Positions 3,001 to 31,736 of a stretch of 34,203 nt of DNA are shown in pieces. The stretch lies in the IMG/VR virus record IMGVR_UViG_3300007538_000091, positions 1 through 34,203 of that record. One strand, 5' to 3'. The notes beneath the pieces are model-generated. The model worked only from the letters and a program-made list of their open reading frames with translations. It was not told the origin of the DNA and did no database searches. A program made the position numbers and the translations under genes. The stretch's first letter is position 1, and every line of letters begins with the position of its first letter. Source of the stretch: a virus.

Positions 3001-6000
3001 AGACAGGAAGGTATTGCGAATGAAAGAATCGAAGAAGCACTCGCCGATAGTGGACGAGTCGGAATCTCTTCTGGAAGATATTCCAGAAGAGCTGTACCCG
3101 GAATTGATCAAGGAACTGGTCAAAATGCAGAAAAGAGGGGAGCCAGAGATGCCACAAGGGCTGTCGCGAACAGTGCAGGACCTAATGGGCAGGTATGGAA
3201 TGTCTCAAGAAGAAGCGGAACAATACGCGAAGCTAATGTAATTGCGTCCTATCGTGTCGCTCCTGAATATGAATCAGAGTATGCAAGCGGGGGTGTATCT
3301 ACCCCCGAGATGTTTGAATTAGAACAATCTCCAAAGTCAGCGGAAGCATTCGAGACAGCAATCACCGAAGCAACATCCGGATCGCCATACGCACCCGCAG
3401 TCTACGTCTACTCAAGGGAAAAATACGCAGACATGCGTTTGTTCCTGAACGGTGATTCGAATGCCGGCTTCGCTGTCAAGGGTGATGACATCGTCAGCGT
3501 CTTTAACGGCCCTACAAGCGGTCTCAAGAACGTGACAAACTCAATGCTACGCCTTGCCTTCGAGCAAGGCGGAAGAAGGCTTGATGCATTCGACACGGTC
3601 CTCCCTGATCTTTACAGCAACAACCTATTTAAGGCGATTGTCCGCTTACCTTGGGACGAAAAAGAAGCCCCAAATGGCTGGGATAAAGAGCTGTTTTCCC
3701 GCTGGAAAAACGGCGAACCCGATGTTGTCTTTATGGCTTATGACCCGACTGCCAAGCCGTACAAAGATGGCGATGGTGAATATGCAAATAGCTATGATGA
3801 GGCCGTTCAAATACAGCAAGCGGCCGCTTCTAGATTCTCGCGTAGATACAGCGCTACAGCACCTTCAGGGCAATTCAACCTAGACGACATGGTTGATCGT
3901 CTTGTTTCCCAAGAGCCCGAAACAAGCCCTATTATGAAAATATGGGATAAGTTCTTTTTGGGAAGACTGGAAGGTGAGACAAGATGGCAGGCGTTCACAA
4001 GGAACGCCGTTAACCGCTTCTTGCCCGGTTACCTGCTAGATAACTATGTCAATGGAGAGATTGCCGACCCAGCCAACAGCGTGGGTCGGGCGATGGAACT
4101 TTCGCAGAGTATGACTGGGCGCCTTTGGGCGCTGGCCGAGCTGGGAGCAATGAAGTTCAACCCAGATACAGGCACCCCTGAGGTGATTGACGCACCTGAC
4201 AACATGGGTCTTCGTCAGATATTTGAGCCAATTGGCGAAAAATACATGCGCGAATATTATGCATATGCCATTGCCAAGCGGGAACTAAAATTGGGCGGAC
4301 AGGGGCGCAAAGGCTTTAAAAATTTAAATAAGCAAGACGCCGCTAAAATTATTAGCGAGTCCGAAGCAAAGTACCCGTTCTTTAGGGAAGTGCATAACAA
4401 CTATGCTCTTTTCAATAGGCGTATGGTTCAGATGGCGGTTGACTCAGGCCTGATCACAAAAGATCAGGGCGATAACTTTATGGACATGGACTATGTCCCC
4501 TATTATCGGTACGCCGAATCAGCAACTGACCCGTCAGAATTTTCCAAAGCAATGGCCGCCAAAGCCCATCAGTCTTTGAAAGACCCGAACGTGTTCGAGA
4601 AAGAGCTAGAAGGCGGAACCATCAAGCTTGGTGACATGTATGAAAACATCACCAAGAACGCCGGGTTAATTGTGTCAGCTTCATTGAAGAATTATGCAAT
4701 GCAGAAAACAGCAGATGCGCTAGACAAAGCATCAGCAATGAATGGCCCGAAATCATGGGGACGCAAAGCCAAGGAAGGTGAGACAGGGCAAATGATCACC
4801 TTCTACCGCAACGGCGAGAAGGTTCGGTATAAGATTGATGACCCAGCATTATGGACCGCTGTTGCGGGACTCACCGCAAAGCAAAAGGAAAGCTTTATCA
4901 AAGGTCTTGAAATGGTAGGCGGCATTCTTCGGTCAGGTGTAACATTGACCCCGGGATTCCAATTAGCCAACCTCTGGCGAGGCAAGATTGATGCTTATGT
5001 TAAGACAGGGATTCCAGTGTACCGCTTTGACCAAACAGTCAAAGCGATGCGTGATGTCTATGCGAACGAGAAAGACACTCAGCAGTTTAAAATTCTAACG
5101 GGGATGGGTGGGTTCCTGTACGGGGCTGACGCCGAATCACTTGCCAGTACATTAAAGAGAGGATACCGGCTCAAGGAGCCGGGCGGCCCAATCATGCAAC
5201 AGATTGGAGACCGACTGAATCAAGCGGTTACGGCGCTTGAGAAAACAGGCGAGGCCTCTGAAATGGCCGAGCGGATTGTGATCATGCGGAAGCTCATGGC
5301 CGAAGGCATGAGCGAGCGAGAGGCGGCGTTCCAAGGTTTGAACTTAATTAACTTCGGGCGGCGTGGGGCTGGTGGATCTCCCGTGCTGAATTTCCTTGTC
5401 AACTTCCTGATCCCCACTATCCCGTTCTTAAATGCGCGTATCCAAGGTCTTGCTCGCTTGGTCGAAGACCCAAAAACCCCGGGCACAGTCAAAGCTGAGG
5501 CGTTCAAAGAGATTTTTGCCAGAGGGATGATCATCACCGCTGGTTCTGTGACACTCGGATTACTTGCCATGCAAGACGACCGATGGGAAGACGAGCCAGT
5601 CATTGAGAAAGTGACCAATGACATCATTTATATTGGCGATGTGAAGATCCGAATCCCTAAGGCGTTCGAGATTGGTGCGTTGTTCGGTACCATCCCCGTG
5701 ATGGCACTTGACGCGATCCGTCAGGAGAGCGCCAATGACTTGGCGCAAGCTGTTGGACACATCCTCATCAGTACATTCTCGTTTAGCATAGTGCCTCAAG
5801 GGCTCTTGCCTGTTCTGGAAGTGATTGGAAATTACGACTCATTCCGTGGCGCCCCTATTGAAGGTATCTCTTTACAAAGATTGCCGACTGAGCTGAGGGC
5901 GTATGAATCAACGCCCGAAATATATAAGTTCCTTTCCCGCAATGGTGGTTCTTTTATTGGCCTTTCCCCACTCGAAATACAGCAGTTGATTGAAGGGTAT

Positions 6001-16563: not shown

Positions 16564-17682
16564 TCAGCTCCTTGCCATGACAACGTCACCAAAGGGGGCG
16601 TCGGACTGCCCAGTGGACACCCAGAGGACTGGGTAGTCAGGCTCTTCTGGGAAGTCCCAGACCTCGAGATCGGTGAAATAGATGAATGAATCAACGGGCA
16701 AGTTGTGATCCCTGACGTAGTTGAACGCTGGAGTCACGCGCGTACCACCACGACCTTTCGCGTCTAGCATCTCGATGGGGTCACCTTGCTCGTAATGATG
16801 GACAGCCTGCACCTTGGTATCGCAACTGATCACAGTCACGCTGAGTGGTTTCATGTCCTGAGATATTGCATTCAGCTCACCCAGAAACTGAGCCAGCATC
16901 TCCGTATTCACGGATGCTGATGTGTCCGCAACAGCAACCACATGACCGGCTCCGAAGTGGTTTACAGCGGGCATGTAGATGCCATGCTGGATCCACTTAC
17001 GGTTACACCTGCTGAAGGTGTAGTCATCTGGCTGGTCTCCACCCACGAACAGATGCATCTTGTCACGCCAGTCAACGCGGGGTGACGAGATATCTTTGAT
17101 CATGTCCTCAATGCCAGCAGGAGCCTTGCCTGCCTGCTTGGCGGCCTGATAAGCCTGAAGCACGTTGATCCTGATATCCTCCTCAATCTGCTTCGCCTCC
17201 TCATCTGAGAGGGCTTCGCCGCTCTCAGACGAGGCTTGAATGACCCCGCCGAAATCCCAACCCTCAGAAGGGTCTGGGGGGTTTTCTTGATTGATCAGTC
17301 GCTGATAAATCATTTCAGACGACATACCAGCAAACTCTGACTCAAACAGATTATTTTCTGGAAGCTTCATGCCAGCATTCAGGATGATCGGGTTGATGGC
17401 ATAATCGGTTGCCATGTTCCAGATCTTGTGGTTGTACTCGCCACGGCGAGTCATGTGGCAAAGAGCGACATGCATCACCTCATGGGCAACCACACCCAAG
17501 ATCTCATCAAAAGAGTGCATTTGCACAAATTCTGGATTGTATCGGATGGACTTACCGTCAGTGCACATGGTTCTGATCGAGTCATCCTCGATCATTTTAA
17601 GGGTCATTGCCATGGCCCCGAAGAACGGCTGTTCAAGCATTAGGCGAGTTCTCGCCTTCGAAATAATCGTTGAAGTTTCCAT
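16564..17682 (-). CDS. VWA-domain protein with metallopeptidase-like N-terminus (DUF2201-type)
   Basis: 372 residues from the ATG at 17682 (GGGAGG 9 nt upstream). HEVMH at residues 67-71 with ATDYAIN soon after matches the metallopeptidase-like half of DUF2201 proteins. The C-terminal half has DTSAS, a VWA metal-adhesion motif, then RGGTRVTPAF and FIYFTDLEVW in the right order. Such proteins work with MoxR-type AAA+ ATPases as chaperone or metal-insertion machines, and the partner ATPase is two genes upstream. It carries palindrome copy 5 near the HEVMH codons. What it remodels in a phage is unknown. Confidence 0.86.
   Translation of the reverse strand: METSTIISKARTRLMLEQPFFGAMAMTLKMIEDDSIRTMCTDGKSIRYNPEFVQMHSFDEILGVVAHEVMHVALCHMTRRGEYNHKIWNMATDYAINPIILNAGMKLPENNLFESEFAGMSSEMIYQRLINQENPPDPSEGWDFGGVIQASSESGEALSDEEAKQIEEDIRINVLQAYQAAKQAGKAPAGIEDMIKDISSPRVDWRDKMHLFVGGDQPDDYTFSRCNRKWIQHGIYMPAVNHFGAGHVVAVADTSASVNTEMLAQFLGELNAISQDMKPLSVTVISCDTKVQAVHHYEQGDPIEMLDAKGRGGTRVTPAFNYVRDHNLPVDSFIYFTDLEVWDFPEEPDYPVLWVSTGQSDAPFGDVVMARS
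17514..17527 (+). repeat. Near-palindrome copy 5 (inside a gene)
   Basis: AGTGCATTTGCACA, 13 of 14 positions, within the VWA-protein coding sequence. It lacks the T-run. It may be chance or a site within the transcribed region. Confidence 0.45.
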
Positions 17683-17872
17683 TGAAGAGTTCCTCCCTCC
17701 CAATTTTATTCAAAGCGAAGGCAATGTACCGCGCATGATTGCGGTCCACTGCCTCGCACCATAGGACTGGCGGATCTGAGTAGACGTTCCCGTCACTCGC
17801 CTGTATGCGCTCAATCCACATGACCAGATTCCGCTCAGCCATAAAGCAACTCAGATCACCGACAGGCTTCAC
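17633..17872 (-). CDS. Small hypothetical protein between ATPase and VWA genes
   Basis: 79 residues from GTG 17872, chosen because it overlaps the ATPase stop as GTGA and has GGAG 8 nt upstream; a TTG further up and an ATG 30 nt further down fit less well. The middle (WIERIQASDGNVYSDPPVLW, CEAVDRNHARYIAFAL) is a mixed alpha/beta pattern. Its last 50 nt overlap the VWA gene. It is probably translated with both neighbours. No family is recognised. Confidence 0.7.
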   Translation of the reverse strand: MKPVGDLSCFMAERNLVMWIERIQASDGNVYSDPPVLWCEAVDRNHARYIAFALNKIGREELFNGNFNDYFEGENSPNA

Positions 17873-18879
17873 AGGATCAGCTCCGCTCCACGGTTCAATA
17901 CCCAATCGCGGAAAGCAGGATCCTTCTTGAGATCAGGAAAGCGCGACAGCGCATCCTTGATCGCGAAGGCCTCGTACTCTCTCTCAGTAAAGCGCTTGAG
18001 GTACTTCATAAAGTTCCCAGCGTTGGACTTGTTAACCCGATAGGCAAGACCGGAACACACCGCATGCAATACAGTGGGGCTATCCGGAATCGGCGCGTTG
18101 TCTGGATCCCTCAAGGGAAGCTCTGGATCAGGGAGTTCCCGATACACCTGCTGGAACGCCTTGAACATAGCAGAGGATCCAACTCCAACCTGCCCAGCAA
18201 TCGCCTCTGATTCGGCGAGCGAATCAAGACCCCAACCTAGAATATTCGAGACCTTCTCCCACGAGCGTGGCGATGGACACGCCTTGGCATCCTTGTCGAA
18301 ATCAGACAGGTGCTTGGGTGAGAAACGCAAGAAACCTGTGACCTCTGGGCGCACACCCTTGGCGTTCATATAGGACAGCGCATCGTCTAGATTTGGCTCA
18401 ACCTCCAAATGCAGGAGCCGATCCTTGAGGTGAGTCGGCATTGCGTTAGTGCCTGCGCGGTGCGATAGATCGTTACCGGCGCAGACGATGGACCAGCCAG
18501 AACCAAGGTGGTGCTCGCCAATCCGACGCTCATTCACAAGCTGGGCGGCGATATTCTGGTTTGCCACAGGAGACTGGGGCAATTCATCGAGAAACAAGAT
18601 CCCGCGTCCCTCTGTGGGGAACCAGTGAGGACGAGCCCGAACGAATGTGTCGTCCTGAAGGTACGGAAAACCACCCAGCTCACCGGCATCATACTGAGCC
18701 AGAATCACCACGCGGCATTCCATGTCCAACTCACCGGCAATGTCGTGGACCAGTGTGGTCTTCCCTAAACCAGCAACACCCCACAGCATGGGGGTGGTGT
18801 ACTCGCTGGTATTGCCAGACAGTTTCAGATTGGCCTCGACAGAGGCCTGAATGATATTCTTCGCGATTGATAAGCGCAT
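17869..18879 (-). CDS. MoxR-like AAA+ ATPase
   Basis: 336 residues; GGGAG 7 nt before the ATG. Walker A is GVAGLGKT (34-41), Walker B is ILFLDEL (94-100), and the sensor-1 asparagine lies in SIVCAGN. The AGELGG loop and the block ending HLKDRLLHLEVEPN are typical of MoxR/RavA-like ATPases. These hexamers remodel proteins together with a VWA partner, here encoded just downstream. It is the first gene after an internal promoter and a hammerhead ribozyme (18902-18950). Confidence 0.9.
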   Translation of the reverse strand: MRLSIAKNIIQASVEANLKLSGNTSEYTTPMLWGVAGLGKTTLVHDIAGELDMECRVVILAQYDAGELGGFPYLQDDTFVRARPHWFPTEGRGILFLDELPQSPVANQNIAAQLVNERRIGEHHLGSGWSIVCAGNDLSHRAGTNAMPTHLKDRLLHLEVEPNLDDALSYMNAKGVRPEVTGFLRFSPKHLSDFDKDAKACPSPRSWEKVSNILGWGLDSLAESEAIAGQVGVGSSAMFKAFQQVYRELPDPELPLRDPDNAPIPDSPTVLHAVCSGLAYRVNKSNAGNFMKYLKRFTEREYEAFAIKDALSRFPDLKKDPAFRDWVLNRGAELIL

Positions 18880-18901: not shown

Positions 18902-18950
18902 GCTGTTTCGGCCCGCGAAGGCCTCATCAGTCGGGACACCCCGATACAGC
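18902..18950 (-). ncRNA. Hammerhead ribozyme E (type III)
   Basis: Minus strand. Stem III GCTG/CAGC (4 bp); cleavage triplet GUA, cut between 18945 and 18944; stem I TCGGG/CCCGA with GTGT loop; core CTGATGA at 18930-18924; stem II GGCC/GGCC with a six-base loop; core GAAA at 18909-18906. All invariant positions are present, including the G-C pair closing stem II. GUA is a permitted but less usual cleavage triplet. The predicted start of the 18958-18986 promoter falls right at its 5' edge. The next ATG is 22 bases beyond. Confidence 0.82.
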
Positions 18951-18957
18951 ACAGGAC

Positions 18958-18986
18958 ATTATACGACAGTAAAGGGCGCCCATCAA
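18958..18986 (-). promoter_or_regulatory. Sigma70-like promoter for the AAA+/VWA genes
   Basis: Minus strand: TTGATG (18986-18981), 17-nt spacer, TATAAT (18963-18958). Predicted start near 18951-18952, so the RNA would begin at or just before ribozyme E. It overlaps the terminator of the preceding genes (18974-18994). Confidence 0.7.
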
Positions 18987-18994
18987 GGGCGCCC
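18974..18994 (-). terminator. GC-rich terminator hairpin (leftward)
   Basis: GGGCGCCC on both arms with a 5-nt loop (TTGAT on the minus strand), followed by only TTTACT. The stem is very stable but the T-run is short. It separates the 19-21 kb genes from the ATPase group, and its loop is the -35 box of the next promoter. Confidence 0.65.
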
Positions 18995-19001
18995 AGATAA
19001 G

Positions 19002-19058
19002 CTAGAGCAAAGCATGGATCAAGAAGTTGATTGCTAAATAGCAGATCACCATTTCCAT
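19002..19058 (-). CDS. 18-residue hydrophobic peptide
   Basis: A tiny frame (MEMVICYLAINFLIHALL) whose ATG follows GGAGGGG at 7 nt and overlaps the preceding gene by 13 nt. It is almost wholly a membrane helix. The strong binding site is the only positive evidence; it could be a chance frame. Confidence 0.35.
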   Translation of the reverse strand: MEMVICYLAINFLIHALL

Positions 19059-19150
19059 TTGTCATCCCCTCCGAAAAAGATTAAACAGGCAAGCAGAACC
19101 GACATGACTCCGCCCATGAAAACCAAGCTGTTCACAACAGTGTACTCCAT
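19046..19150 (-). CDS. 34-residue single-pass membrane peptide
   Basis: Starts on TGATG, sharing one base with the preceding stop, so it is probably translated by reinitiation. Residues 8-27 (SLVFMGGVMSVLLACLIFFG) form one membrane segment, followed by a short charged end (DDKWKW). It could assist lysis or sit in the host membrane; no family is recognised. Confidence 0.55.
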   Translation of the reverse strand: MEYTVVNSLVFMGGVMSVLLACLIFFGGDDKWKW

Positions 19151-19317
19151 CAGTCTTTATCCTCCGGTACTGCGTCCGCCTTTCGGCGGGCGCGTTCCAC
19201 TTCCTCATCTGACCAAGGCTTGAGGCCCTCAGCGAGCCAGACGCCAAGGCCAACGAGCGCGAAAAAAGCAGTCATGAAAACCAACAGCAAGAACCCATTC
19301 ACGACAGCGTCACTCAT
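19150..19317 (-). CDS. 55-residue single-pass membrane protein
   Basis: The ATG overlaps the preceding stop by 8 nt. Residues 7-30 (NGFLLLVFMTAFFALVGLGV and on) form a membrane helix; the remainder is charged (EEVERARRKADAVPEDKD). Together with the next one or two peptides it forms a run of tiny membrane proteins. A holin or spanin-like role is possible but not shown. Confidence 0.62.
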   Translation of the reverse strand: MSDAVVNGFLLLVFMTAFFALVGLGVWLAEGLKPWSDEEVERARRKADAVPEDKD

Positions 19318-19489
19318 CTTTGAACTCCATTCCAGAAAGGACGCGCAGTGCTTCGGAAAGCTTGCTGATGTCCTCCGCCAAAGAGGACATGGTCTCAGAG
19401 TCAGACGCTATCCTTCCCATGTGTTGCAGGAAATCCAGATCGGATTGGATCTGGGACTCGATTACTCGCCATGCTTCACGCTGATTCAT
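19310..19489 (-). CDS. Small helical hypothetical protein
   Basis: 59 residues from the ATG at 19489 (GAGGTGAGC just upstream). Two amphipathic helices (EAWRVIESQIQSDLDFLQHM and LAEDISKLSEALRVL) suggest a helical hairpin or coiled-coil dimer. It follows the 197-residue gene by 7 nt. No family is recognised. Confidence 0.68.
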   Translation of the reverse strand: MNQREAWRVIESQIQSDLDFLQHMGRIASDSETMSSLAEDISKLSEALRVLSGMEFKDE

Positions 19490-19496
19490 GCTCACC

Positions 19497-20090
19497 TCAC
19501 AACCCGAAACGCTTTTTACAGATGGGGCCAATCCCCTGCTTGACTGATTCTGGATCAGTCAGCTCCCGTCCGCAACAGGCGCACTCGCCTGTCTCAAGAC
19601 CATGCCGAATGGCAGTGCCCAGAGGATCGGACGCAAGATCAAGGACAGGCTTGATGGATTCATCAGACACATCACGCGCCCGAAAAAATTCACCTTGAGG
19701 AGTCACCTTACCAAGGTACTCCCCCCATCTGTCCTTGACGTACAGACAGCCGACATTGGTTGAATTCTCACCGGCTGGGTACACCTTGGTTTTGCCCGAA
19801 CGAATAATCGGGCGCTTCAATCCATTACTCTTCGCTGTCTGGAAGGCAACGAATAGAGACTGGAACGCATTGCCCACAGACGCATCCGCCTGAGGCGCTG
19901 GCCGGTTCACAATCCGCTCGACTGCCGAAACCTGACGCTCCGTCAGGGACCCGTACTGGGCCAATGACTTACGCAACGACATGCGGAAATCATTTTTCTC
20001 CTGAACCTTGAGCCACTCCCACACTGGGCGATTGGAGTCACGCAAGTTTGCGAACGCAGGGACATCATTGAAAAGTTGATCAATGTTCAT
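19497..20090 (-). CDS. DUF6011-like zinc protein
   Basis: 197 residues from the ATG at 20090, preceded by TTTTGGAGG. The frame extends upstream through the palindrome and part of ribozyme D, so the shorter start is clear. The C-terminus (CACCGRELTDPESVKQGIGP, then ICKKRFG) matches the small zinc motif I know as DUF6011, with Cys 170, 172/173 and 191. The N-terminal 60 residues are helical and contain SLTERQVSAVERI. Such proteins occur near phage DNA-handling genes; the role is unknown. Confidence 0.8.
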   Translation of the reverse strand: MNIDQLFNDVPAFANLRDSNRPVWEWLKVQEKNDFRMSLRKSLAQYGSLTERQVSAVERIVNRPAPQADASVGNAFQSLFVAFQTAKSNGLKRPIIRSGKTKVYPAGENSTNVGCLYVKDRWGEYLGKVTPQGEFFRARDVSDESIKPVLDLASDPLGTAIRHGLETGECACCGRELTDPESVKQGIGPICKKRFGL

Positions 20091-20106
20091 AGGGTCCTCC
20101 AAAAAA

Positions 20107-20120
20107 AGTGCAATTGAACT
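20107..20120 (-). repeat. Near-palindrome copy 6 (leader)
   Basis: On the minus strand AGTTCAATTGCACT, then a T-run and GGAGG. It lies exactly between ribozyme D and the ribosome binding site of the 20090 gene. With flanks it is a 20-bp palindrome with one mismatched pair. Confidence 0.75.
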
Positions 20121-20128
20121 TTTGACCT

Positions 20129-20181
20129 GTCTCATCAGTGGCGGTAGGTCATCCCCGCCAGACGCCCGAAGGCGTTTCGAC
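20129..20181 (-). ncRNA. Hammerhead ribozyme D (type II)
   Basis: Minus strand, circularly permuted order: stem II GTC, core GAAA (20178-20175), stem III CGCC-TTCG-GGCG with a UUCG loop, cleavage GUC (cut between 20161 and 20160), stem I TGGCGG/CCGCCA with a 10-nt loop, core CTGATGA (20138-20132), stem II GAC. Stem II is only 3 bp, as in ribozyme A. It begins 6 nt after the preceding stop codon. The cut leaves about 70 nt before the ATG of the 197-residue gene. Confidence 0.88.
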
Positions 20182-20187
20182 TATTCA

Positions 20188-20415
20188 CTAAGGTGTTGGA
20201 GTAAAGGGCTTGTATTCCGTCTCCTCAGTAAACTCAACAATCGTGTCGGCCACCCCTTTGAGATACGCCTCCAGATCTTCTTCCGAATCAAATGAAGGCG
20301 TCCCATTTGTCACCGCATTGACCCCCGACACATCAGTGATCTTCGCGTGATACCGCATGTCCTCGTGATAACAATTGAGGATTCTCAACAAGTCACTCCG
20401 CAGTTGTCTGTTCAT
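20188..20415 (-). CDS. Hypothetical protein downstream of ribozyme C
   Basis: 75 residues; GGAG 9 nt before the ATG, directly after ribozyme C. Helical N-terminus (RQLRSDLLRILNCYHEDMRY), then an acidic helix (SEEDLEAYLKGVADTIVEF) and a Pro/Thr tail. No family is recognised. The gene is enclosed by ribozymes on both sides, so its message would be an isolated monocistronic piece of about 300 nt. Confidence 0.7.
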   Translation of the reverse strand: MNRQLRSDLLRILNCYHEDMRYHAKITDVSGVNAVTNGTPSFDSEEDLEAYLKGVADTIVEFTEETEYKPFTPTP

Positions 20416-20436
20416 CTTTAATTCTCCAGTGTGTTT

Positions 20437-20488
20437 GGGTTTCGCCCTGCTGTGGGCTCATCAGTGGACCAGCATCAGGTCCAGACCC
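20437..20488 (-). ncRNA. Hammerhead ribozyme C (type III)
   Basis: Minus strand: stem III GGG/CCC, cleavage GUC (cut between 20484 and 20483), stem I TGGACC/GGTCCA, core CTGATGA (20464-20458), stem II GCCC/GGGC with a six-base loop, core GAAA (20443-20440). Stem III is short, and its 5' arm can instead pair in a CCCC-TTCG-GGGG hairpin just upstream, so folding may be switchable. It lies in an 85-base gap ahead of the 75-residue gene. Confidence 0.82.
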
Positions 20489-20500
20489 CGAAGGGGCGGC

Positions 20501-21073
20501 TTACGCCGCCGCCTCCAGTGCTTCCAGTGTGGCCGCAATTGATGCGGCGTTGGCGTTTGCCTGAGCCTCCTTCTCAGCCTCGATCTCCTTGGCCTCAAGG
20601 ATTGCGCGGACCAGCTCATCAAGGCGGATCCGGTCAGACTCATCCAGCTTGGCGACAGCCTTGGCCAGCTTGGCCACCGCGTCCTCCTCGCCGAATGCGC
20701 GGGCCTTGATCTTGGCCTCAGTGGTCAGCCCTTCACTATCAAAGACCATCAGCACATCGCCGACATTGGTTAGGCCGCTCAGTTCATCAACCGCCCGAAC
20801 AACACCAGTGGTGTTCTCCACATAACGCTTGATGCAAGCATCAGAAACCCCAGCCTCAATCAGATCAGCCTTCAAGGCCTTGCTGACGTTGGTTGGCAGT
20901 TTGCCCTTGTTGGTCAACCGAACGCCCTGAGCGTTCAGGTCAGCAACCAGCAACGCGTAGGATTCGATCTTCTTGGTGTTGACCTCAGAGGTCAGGCCCT
21001 TGCGAGACTCTTTCAAACCAGCAATGGCTTGTTCGTTACGGGCGATTTCAGAAACAGAAATAAAAGTTGTCAT
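20501..21073 (-). CDS. Hypothetical protein downstream of ribozyme A
   Basis: 190 residues; TAGGAGG 9 nt before the ATG. The N-terminal half mixes helices and strands (SVSEIARNEQAIAGLKESRK, RLTNKGKLPTNVSKALKADL). The last 60 residues are an Ala/Glu-rich coiled coil ending in EALEAAA. Its stop codon is in the loop of a GGCGGC-GTAA-GCCGCC hairpin. No family is recognised. Its message would be freed by ribozymes A and C. Confidence 0.75.
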   Translation of the reverse strand: MTTFISVSEIARNEQAIAGLKESRKGLTSEVNTKKIESYALLVADLNAQGVRLTNKGKLPTNVSKALKADLIEAGVSDACIKRYVENTTGVVRAVDELSGLTNVGDVLMVFDSEGLTTEAKIKARAFGEEDAVAKLAKAVAKLDESDRIRLDELVRAILEAKEIEAEKEAQANANAASIAATLEALEAAA

Positions 21074-21101
21074 AGTTGGTCCCTCCTAGGGATTGTGAGA
21101 T

Positions 21102-21157
21102 GGCTCATCAGACCGTGGTCTCTCACACCACAGTGACCCGCCTGAGCGGGTTTCGCC
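21102..21157 (-). ncRNA. Hammerhead ribozyme A (type II)
   Basis: Minus strand, permuted order: stem II GGC directly after a TAA stop, core GAAA (21154-21151), stem III CCCGC-TCAG-GCGGG, cleavage GUC (cut between 21135 and 21134), stem I ACTGTGGT/ACCACGGT (8 bp, one G-U) with loop GTGAGAG, core CTGATGA (21111-21105), stem II GCC. All conserved positions are met. It occupies most of the 84-base gap before the 190-residue gene. Confidence 0.9.
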
Positions 21158-21475
21158 TTAGTTGATGTAGCCTTGCTGTACAAGGTGATTACGCACCAGT
21201 TGGTGAGGCACAAAGAACAGATCGTGGCGCAGTGTGGTGTGGCGCTCAGAGACAAAGCGGCGAGTGCCCTTGGCGTCCTTGAACGATGCACCGTTGAGGC
21301 GGCAGGACCAAAGTGTCATGGGCTTGCCAGTGGCCTTGTTATCAATGACCTCAGCTTGGAACAGGAAGCCGACAGAGTAATTGCGGCCATTGATATGCTC
21401 CACAGTCGCTCTCGCAAGCAAAAAGCCGTTGTTGCGTCCATCCATTTGAATTTGGATTGTGTTTTCAAAGCTCAT
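21158..21475 (-). CDS. Hypothetical protein downstream of ribozyme B
   Basis: 105 residues from the ATG at 21475, with GGAG 7 nt upstream. The frame stays open further upstream, but that part runs through ribozyme B and its structured leader and reads like non-coding sequence. The protein is beta-rich (IQIQMDGRNNGFLLARATVE, RNYSVGFLFQAEVIDNKA), then basic and helical. No family is recognised. It is the first gene of the leftward block from promoter 21755-21782, which may hint at an early role. Confidence 0.75.
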   Translation of the reverse strand: MSFENTIQIQMDGRNNGFLLARATVEHINGRNYSVGFLFQAEVIDNKATGKPMTLWSCRLNGASFKDAKGTRRFVSERHTTLRHDLFFVPHQLVRNHLVQQGYIN

Positions 21476-21482
21476 AGTGATT

Positions 21483-21545
21483 CTCCAATGTGTTTCGAGC
21501 GATCTCATCAGAGCAGGCTCGCTACTGCCTGCTGACACATCTGAG
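21483..21545 (-). ncRNA. Hammerhead ribozyme B (type III)
   Basis: Minus strand: stem III ATGTG/CACAT, extended by a G-U pair and CTC/GAG after one mismatch; cleavage GUC (cut between 21534 and 21533); stem I AGCAGGC/GCCTGCT (7 bp) with an 8-nt loop; core CTGATGA (21511-21505); a short stem II in GATCGCTC; core GAAA (21496-21493). The outer stem III pairs with GGAG (21486-21483), which is the ribosome binding site of the 21475 gene. Confidence 0.88.
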
Positions 21546-21748
21546 CCCCAACGTAGGTCACATCGCGCGACATACGTTCGACTCTTTCCGGCACAGCTCG
21601 CACTCGCCAGTCTTACGGTATCGACTGGGTCAAAGCGGTCTTCGCGGTGTCCGATATGCCCGCTGGGCTGTCGGCTCAACCACTCCCCAGAATAGGGGGC
21701 CCCCAGAAGGAGGCGAGGATCGAATCTCAGAATGAGTAGGGATCCATA
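21546..21748 (-). other. Structured leader upstream of ribozyme B
   Basis: About 200 bases of predicted leader with no convincing gene. Minus-strand hairpins visible by eye: AACGTA/TACGTT (21578-21550), CCAGTC/GACTGG (21628-21607), and a two-tier CCGA/TCGG with inner GCCC/GGGC (21674-21651). A GGGGGCCCCC palindrome lies near 21700. It could be a regulatory RNA, a riboswitch-like domain or a packaging-related structure. No known class is recognised. Confidence 0.5.
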
Positions 21749-21754
21749 TCTGCG

Positions 21755-21782
21755 ATTTTAATCAACTGAAAACAGGAGTCAA
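21755..21782 (-). promoter_or_regulatory. Strong sigma70-like leftward promoter
   Basis: Minus strand: TTGACT (21782-21777), 16-nt spacer, TAAAAT (21760-21755). Start predicted near 21747. It drives leftward transcription through the structured leader and ribozyme B and lies back to back with the packaging genes. Confidence 0.72.
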
Positions 21783-31273: not shown

Positions 31274-31284
31274 TTCCTGACAAG

Positions 31285-31298
31285 GGTGCATTTGCACT
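31285..31298 (+). repeat. Near-palindrome copy 9
   Basis: GGTGCATTTGCACT with T-run, between the capsid terminator and the next gene's binding site. 13 of 14 positions. Confidence 0.7.
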
Positions 31299-31328
31299 TT
31301 TGACTCTGGCCACGACAGGAGAATCCAA

Positions 31329-31736
31329 ATGGCTAATACAACTTTCACAGGACCAGTGAACTCTAATAACGGCTTCGTTGGCGCAGTTACTGGTAACGTA
31401 ACAGGTAACGTAACAGGTAACGTAACAGGTGCCTTGACTGGTGCAATAACTGGTAGCATCCAAGCACTCTCGGGTGCCGGAGCAGTGAATCTGACCAGTT
31501 TAATTACAGAGATCACAACAACTGGCGCAGATGCTTTGACCCTTGCTAATGGGACAGCGGGACAAATCAAAATCATCACTATGGTTGTTGATGGAGGCGA
31601 CGGCACATTGACTCCGACTACATTTGCCAATGGGTCTACAATCACATTCAATGATGCTGGTGACTCAGTTATGCTCGTTTATAACTCAACTGTAGGTTGG
31701 GCTCTTGTAGCGAATACTGGCGCAACTGTTGCTTAA
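31329..31736 (+). CDS. Repeat-containing structural protein
   Basis: 135 residues; AGGAG 7 nt before the ATG. Opens with TTFTGPVNSNNGFVGAVTG, then three GNVT units and similar ALTG/AITG repeats that look like a beta-helical or collagen-like fibre stalk. The C-terminal 80 residues form a small beta domain with DGGDGTLTPTTF and VMLVYNSTVGWALV. Such proteins are usual as capsid fibres or surface decorations in aquatic phages. Role inferred. Confidence 0.72.
   Translation: MANTTFTGPVNSNNGFVGAVTGNVTGNVTGNVTGALTGAITGSIQALSGAGAVNLTSLITEITTTGADALTLANGTAGQIKIITMVVDGGDGTLTPTTFANGSTITFNDAGDSVMLVYNSTVGWALVANTGATVA
31392..31427 (+). repeat. Three tandem 12-bp repeats
   Basis: GGTAACGTAACA repeated three times without change, encoding GNVT units. 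Perfect identity suggests recent slippage expansion; the copy number may vary between relatives. Confidence 0.9.

Follow-up and report, generated by a model that had tools for sequence, protein, structure and literature searches.

Clusters of hammerhead ribozymes that flank single phage genes were described by Perreault et al. (2011; PMC3088659), who proposed that such clusters split mRNAs and tested three of them. Cleavage of such clusters, which are analogous to the series described below, was demonstrated in vitro and, for a triple cluster, also in E. coli cells. De la Pena et al. (2017; PMC6155905) restate the 2011 clusters and call the role of prokaryotic hammerheads an open question.

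The stretch of DNA analysed here (the window) is a 34,203-nt IMG/VR fragment of a tailed phage. The plus strand carries terminase, portal, and major head genes from 23.6 kb onward, whereas a leftward region of the minus strand begins near 21.75 kb. Genes for recombination and a primase are present as well. Judging from the kinds of genes and their position, the leftward genes appear to be early. Between positions 21540 and 18902, five hammerheads (A to E) can be read directly from the minus strand. In the direction of transcription, the order is leader, B, a 105-aa gene, A, a 190-aa gene, C, a 75-aa gene, D, a DUF6011 gene, small genes, E, a MoxR-type ATPase gene, and a VWA protein gene (Table 1). 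The boundary between the ATPase and VWA genes and those inside the small-gene block (19.5-19.0 kb) are free of ribozymes. A sequence-only reading of this DNA had regarded such a series as a system not previously described, a claim that fails because the clusters, the splitting idea, and the tests were published in 2011 (PMC3088659). Several hammerheads close together that flank single genes or short blocks, which is how those clusters are defined, are found in the window and in its relatives. Our preferred explanation, to which we assign a probability of about 0.62, is that these are working self-cleaving hammerheads that cut the early leftward phage RNA into near single-gene messages with shielded ends.

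Table 1. Positions of the features discussed in the text (numbering of the window)
Feature	Positions	Strand	Remarks
Promoter-like site TTGACT-16-TAAAAT before the leader	21755-21782	-	consensus match
Untranslated structured leader RNA, predicted to be removable by B	21541-21748	-	conserved in L003 (1850-2070) and L004 (3680-3895); fold z -1.6
Hammerhead B, type III	21488-21540	-	predicted cut 21534/21533, parting leader RNA from first gene; orthologues L003 2067-2116, L004 3890-3943
105-aa gene between B and A	21158-21475	-	no family match
Hammerhead A, type II	21102-21157	-	predicted cut 21135/21134; directly after stop TAA 21160-21158; RF02276 38.4 bits
Pseudoknot 3' partner of A, TCTCACA	21094-21100	-	pairs with loop I TGTGAGA (21127-21121), 7 bp
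190-aa gene between A and C	20501-21073	-	homologues in L003, L004, L062
Hammerhead C, type III	20437-20488	-	predicted cut 20484/20483; RF00008 40.1 bits, E=1.7e-5
75-aa gene between C and D	20188-20415	-	no homologue found in relatives
Hammerhead D, type II	20129-20181	-	predicted cut 20161/20160; upstream-gene stop ends 6 nt before stem II; RF02276 38.2 bits
Pseudoknot 3' partner of D, AGGTCA	20123-20128	-	pairs with loop I TGACCT, 6 bp
DUF6011 protein gene after D	19497-20090	-	Pfam PF19474, 2.5e-14
Terminator-like hairpin GGGCGCCC-TTGAT-GGGCGCCC	18974-18994	-	GC-rich, weak T tail; fold z -4.98; overlaps promoter-like site before E
Promoter-like site TTGATG-17-TATAAT before E	18958-18986	-	consensus match only; same geometry in L003
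Hammerhead E, type III, GUA	18902-18950	-	predicted cut 18945/18944; RF00008 38.6 bits, E=4.5e-5; orthologue L003 5389-5439 (51.8 bits, RF00008)
MoxR-type AAA ATPase gene after E	17869-18879	-	phrog_1297, 3e-73
DUF2201/VWA protein gene, without preceding ribozyme	16564-17703	-	PF13203, 3.9e-49

All five elements carry CTGATGA, GAAA, and a NUH triplet in the correct order on the minus strand. Hammerheads A and D are of type II, with the order stem II, GAAA, stem III hairpin, UC, stem I hairpin, CUGAUGA, and stem II, whereas B, C, and E are of type III, in which stem III is followed by UH, the stem I hairpin, CUGAUGA, the stem II hairpin, GAAA, and the other strand of stem III. The cleavage triplet is GUA in E and GUC in the other four. 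The 5'-hydroxyl positions predicted by the sequence-only reading (21134, 21533, 20483, 20160, and 18944) agree base for base with our re-reading, and its identification of the elements as hammerheads is supported. Its assignment of paired stems I to III to every element holds for A, C, D, and E, for which MFE folding returns a three-stem structure. The element B has the core and stems I and III and is probably also a hammerhead, but its proper extent is 21488-21540 rather than 21483-21545, and its stem II has just 2 bp.

A search with the Rfam models (cmscan), which had been proposed as a check, supports the elements unevenly. Hammerheads A and D score above the gathering value of 37 for the type II model RF02276, whereas C and E have low E-values with the type III model RF00008 but fall below its gathering value of 48.5, which is a database threshold and not a biochemical feature. 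The best match of B (20.6 bits) is to the wrong type. By eye, B has a 7-bp stem I, a good stem III, and a 4-bp pairing between loops I and II (GCGA/TCGC), and it is supported further by its orthologues, which head the same operon in the related contigs L003 and L004 and whose stem II measures 4 bp. The models probably miss B because of its 2-bp stem II. A covariance model that we built (R1), which by construction recognises the copies used to build it, gives 63.9 bits for A and 79.0 bits for D (E=1.6e-18 in its own record).

Just before C, the sequence CCCCTTCGGGG at 20503-20484 (minus strand) could compete with stem III of that ribozyme, and a similar CCC/GGG option precedes the C copy of L004. 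This segment is possibly a switch, or else what is left of the stem III hairpin of a type II ribozyme.

Chance does not account for the series. A descriptor covering the three permutations (stem I of at least 4 bp, stem III of at least 4, and stem II of at least 3, or at least 2 for type II) matches only A, C, D, and E across all 34,203 bases. Only three matches in total, and never more than one per shuffle, were obtained from 200 dinucleotide-preserving shuffles of the window, and one shuffle each of 1.17 Mb of loci gave none. Neither the descriptor nor Rfam nor model R1 revealed further hammerheads elsewhere in the window.

The type II ribozymes can form a pseudoknot between loop I and their flank. 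Among 185 type II copies, 73% can form at least five Watson-Crick pairs between loop I and the 10 nt that follow stem II, compared with 8% when flanks are swapped between copies. These copies include 91 distinct loop I-flank helices of at least 4 bp. The pseudoknots covary, those of A and D included, in the compensatory manner that an active ribozyme would be expected to show.

A search with the ATPase identified two related viral contigs, L003 (80%) and L004 (71%), and L062 is also a relative. The 190-aa protein gave no close relatives among viral contigs, only distant homologues in these same three. Within the same operon, L003 carries six hammerheads, L062 five, and L004 four; one copy each in L062 (its fifth) and L004 (its fourth) is counted from RF00008. 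The 190-aa, DUF6011, and ATPase genes are common to the relatives and the series of hammerheads is kept in all three, while the small genes between the ribozymes vary, and additional small genes are accompanied by additional ribozymes. At the boundary before DUF6011, a type II hammerhead is present in the window and L003, and a type III hammerhead in L004 and L062. This suggests that cutting at this site has been kept while the permutation of the ribozyme changed.

Beyond these relatives, a type II DNA pattern with GTC/GAC in stem II has at least 120 matches in IMG/VR, as do each of the patterns with GGC/GCC and GCC/GGC, whereas the GTC/GAC pattern is found in only 31 stretches from 84,980 bacterial and archaeal genomes. 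When whole records are searched with R1, series of 6 to 8 are present in several viral contigs, and the Streptomyces phages R4, Spernnie, and Paedore carry type II series of 8, 9, and 12, each on one strand and in one region of the genome. All copies are on the same strand in 112 of the 113 viral loci with at least two copies, and likewise in the multi-copy full records from one of the R1 searches; the loci were selected for holding a hammerhead, and these numbers are not population frequencies. The record of Dulem virus 39 (PP511791), which has hammerheads on both strands, is an exception to this one-strand rule. One contig (NZ_BLYC01000024.1) of the genome of a Bathymodiolus methanotrophic symbiont carries a series of at least six hammerheads of type II. 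The R4 record annotates three tiny genes (gp60.1, gp67.1, and gp75.1) where type II hammerheads are located, and these gene calls are probably spurious.

To describe how type II copies are placed relative to stop codons, we took the longest nearby ORF (minimum 50 codons) and measured the first base of its stop relative to G12 of GAAA. This stop lies 4 to 12 nt before G12 in 136 of 168 copies (81%), 118 of 204 (58%), and 99 of 145 (68%) in three independent scans. The commonest single position is -5 in the first scan and -6 in the other two, such that the stop either shares the first G of a 3-bp stem II or directly precedes this stem, and it rarely falls inside the ribozyme (4, 6, and 8 cases). 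The stop is at -6 for hammerhead A and at -12 for D; type III copies and those of R4 are less tightly docked. These figures are raw counts, and compact gene spacing could yield part of the docking. The sequence-only reading placed every element just ahead of a gene start, which is refined here: A adjoins a stop codon and C lies about 12 nt past that of the preceding gene, whereas E and B are located beside promoter-like sites and are not clearly between cistrons.

The promoter-like sites in the window are consensus matches whose frequency is not above that in shuffles. From the site before E, the predicted RNA start is at about 18950, which is the first base of E, and in L003 a TTGACC-17-TATACT site (5354-5382) ends 7 bases upstream of the E copy at 5389. 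E therefore lies where a second transcript is predicted to begin, with a terminator-like hairpin ahead of it, and the sequence-only proposal of one leftward transcription unit is doubtful. Because the geometry in L003 is the same, E probably trims the 5' end of this second RNA, with B removing the leader of the first.

The leader of about 210 nt shows 10 base pairs with two-sided changes in three sequences, clearest in its last hairpin. A reading of the leader as a strongly folding RNA was rejected (z only -0.7 to -1.75), and no tRNA was found in it. Different, long GC-rich leaders occupy the equivalent place in L062 and L086.

Two other elements recur or resemble known RNAs. The palindrome GTGCANNTGCAC occurs six times in the window (2348, 6486, 15598, 17515, 21852, and 31286), compared with 0.02 expected in shuffles. 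Its copies, often flanked by runs of A and T, resemble a family of operators or terminators belonging to this phage. Related versions are located near the leaders of L003 and L004. Directly following a major head protein gene, a match to the Rfam Mu-gpT-DE RNA (31275-31331, plus strand; 39.9 bits, E=5.7e-6, below the gathering value of 49) contains one of these palindromes.

In our preferred explanation, A, C, and D would cut the nascent RNA shortly past one gene's stop codon, leaving about 60 nt ahead of the next start codon. B would free the first gene of its structured leader, while E would trim about 6 nt, together with the triphosphate, from what is probably a new transcript. Cleavage by a type II ribozyme would give an upstream message that ends in the stem III hairpin and carries a 2',3'-cyclic phosphate. 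Its downstream counterpart would begin with a 5'-hydroxyl group and the hairpin of stem I. In this way, every small gene would be placed on a near single-gene message with both ends shielded, and its stability and translation would be uncoupled from those of its neighbours. Cleavage, the protective effect, and the benefit to the phage are what we infer from sequence, structure, covariation, position, and recurrence. Splitting of a polycistronic RNA, as originally suggested for all five elements, is likely for A, C, and D, but leader removal and 5' trimming would better describe B and E, respectively. Cleavage by B, with its short stem II, and by E, with its GUA triplet, may be slow. Cutting may also be limited by ribosomes that terminate at a docked stop, since these should occlude GAAA together with a portion of stem III.

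The contact between the upstream stop codon and stem II leads to a different explanation, in which a terminating ribosome blocks folding and the RNA is cut only when the upstream gene is not densely translated, such that the array reports or adjusts translation. The stop at exactly -5 or -6 in 99 of 168, 49 of 204, and 47 of 145 copies, its rarity inside the ribozyme, and the docking of A and D are consistent with this possibility. However, a compact phage genome would place any intergenic element beside a stop codon, and the looser docking of type III and R4 copies also speaks against such gating. We therefore view it as a minority possibility, although, if true, it would represent a new coupling of translation to RNA processing. 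Also a minority possibility is the broader proposal that stop-docked hammerheads in series are a general means of making mRNA ends gene by gene, wherein ribosome-gated, self-cutting 3' ends and monocistronic, hairpin-protected messages replace terminators and promoters across the early region.

The ribozymes might instead be neutral or recombination-friendly linkers between swappable gene cassettes, where cutting is tolerated but not useful. Near-identical ribozymes (93-100%) do join unrelated genes, and in many pairs (for example L087/L119, L047/L050, L003/L086, and a pair in L042) homology ends where the ribozyme does, on one side or on both, but we regard ordinary phage mosaicism as sufficient for this pattern. 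Gene-order breaks are found at 9 of 13 boundaries with ribozymes in both phages versus 177 of 245 neighbouring ribozyme-free boundaries, and thus we rejected the ribozymes as recombination hot spots. Likewise, they are tied to neither the upstream nor the downstream gene (36 of 175 versus 33 of 200, no difference), and their cores and pseudoknots are under clear selection. These observations render the linker explanation improbable. Finally, that the elements are chance look-alikes or inactive remnants is barely credible despite the minimal stem II of B, its failure with Rfam, and the scores of C and E below gathering, given the shuffle control, the orthologues, the covariation of the pseudoknots, and the recurrence in dozens of phages.

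The series most closely resembles the clusters of Perreault et al. (2011; PMC3088659), which also have mixed types, flank single small genes of phage origin, and include pseudoknotted type II ribozymes. Unlike those clusters, the present series is carried by a free phage contig with five copies, its relatives have 4 to 6, and cultured phages have 8 to 12. The text of the 2011 report (PMC3088659) makes no mention of stop codons. The hammerhead of the haloviruses HF1/HF2 (PMC3088659) is also located just before a phage early gene, and the mapped 5' end of its RNA lies no more than 3 nt from the cut, which resembles E. However, it is a single, variant hammerhead from an archaeal virus. The phages R4, Spernnie, and Paedore share the one-strand series with the window, in their case of 8, 9, and 12 type II hammerheads; in R4, the ribozymes are unannotated in the record and stop-codon docking is looser. 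The start-associated sequences of cluster K mycobacteriophages are likewise repeated intergenic elements before many small phage genes, but these are short DNA or translation-related motifs without a ribozyme fold.

No report of an R4-like phage series or of stop-codon docking was found in the text of the open-access papers searched, and these two details look new. Also new here are the recurrence in relatives with gene swaps, the switch of type at one boundary, and the covarying loop I-flank pseudoknots. With long series present in cultured phages and an exact placement at stop codons, the role of prokaryotic hammerheads becomes experimentally testable.
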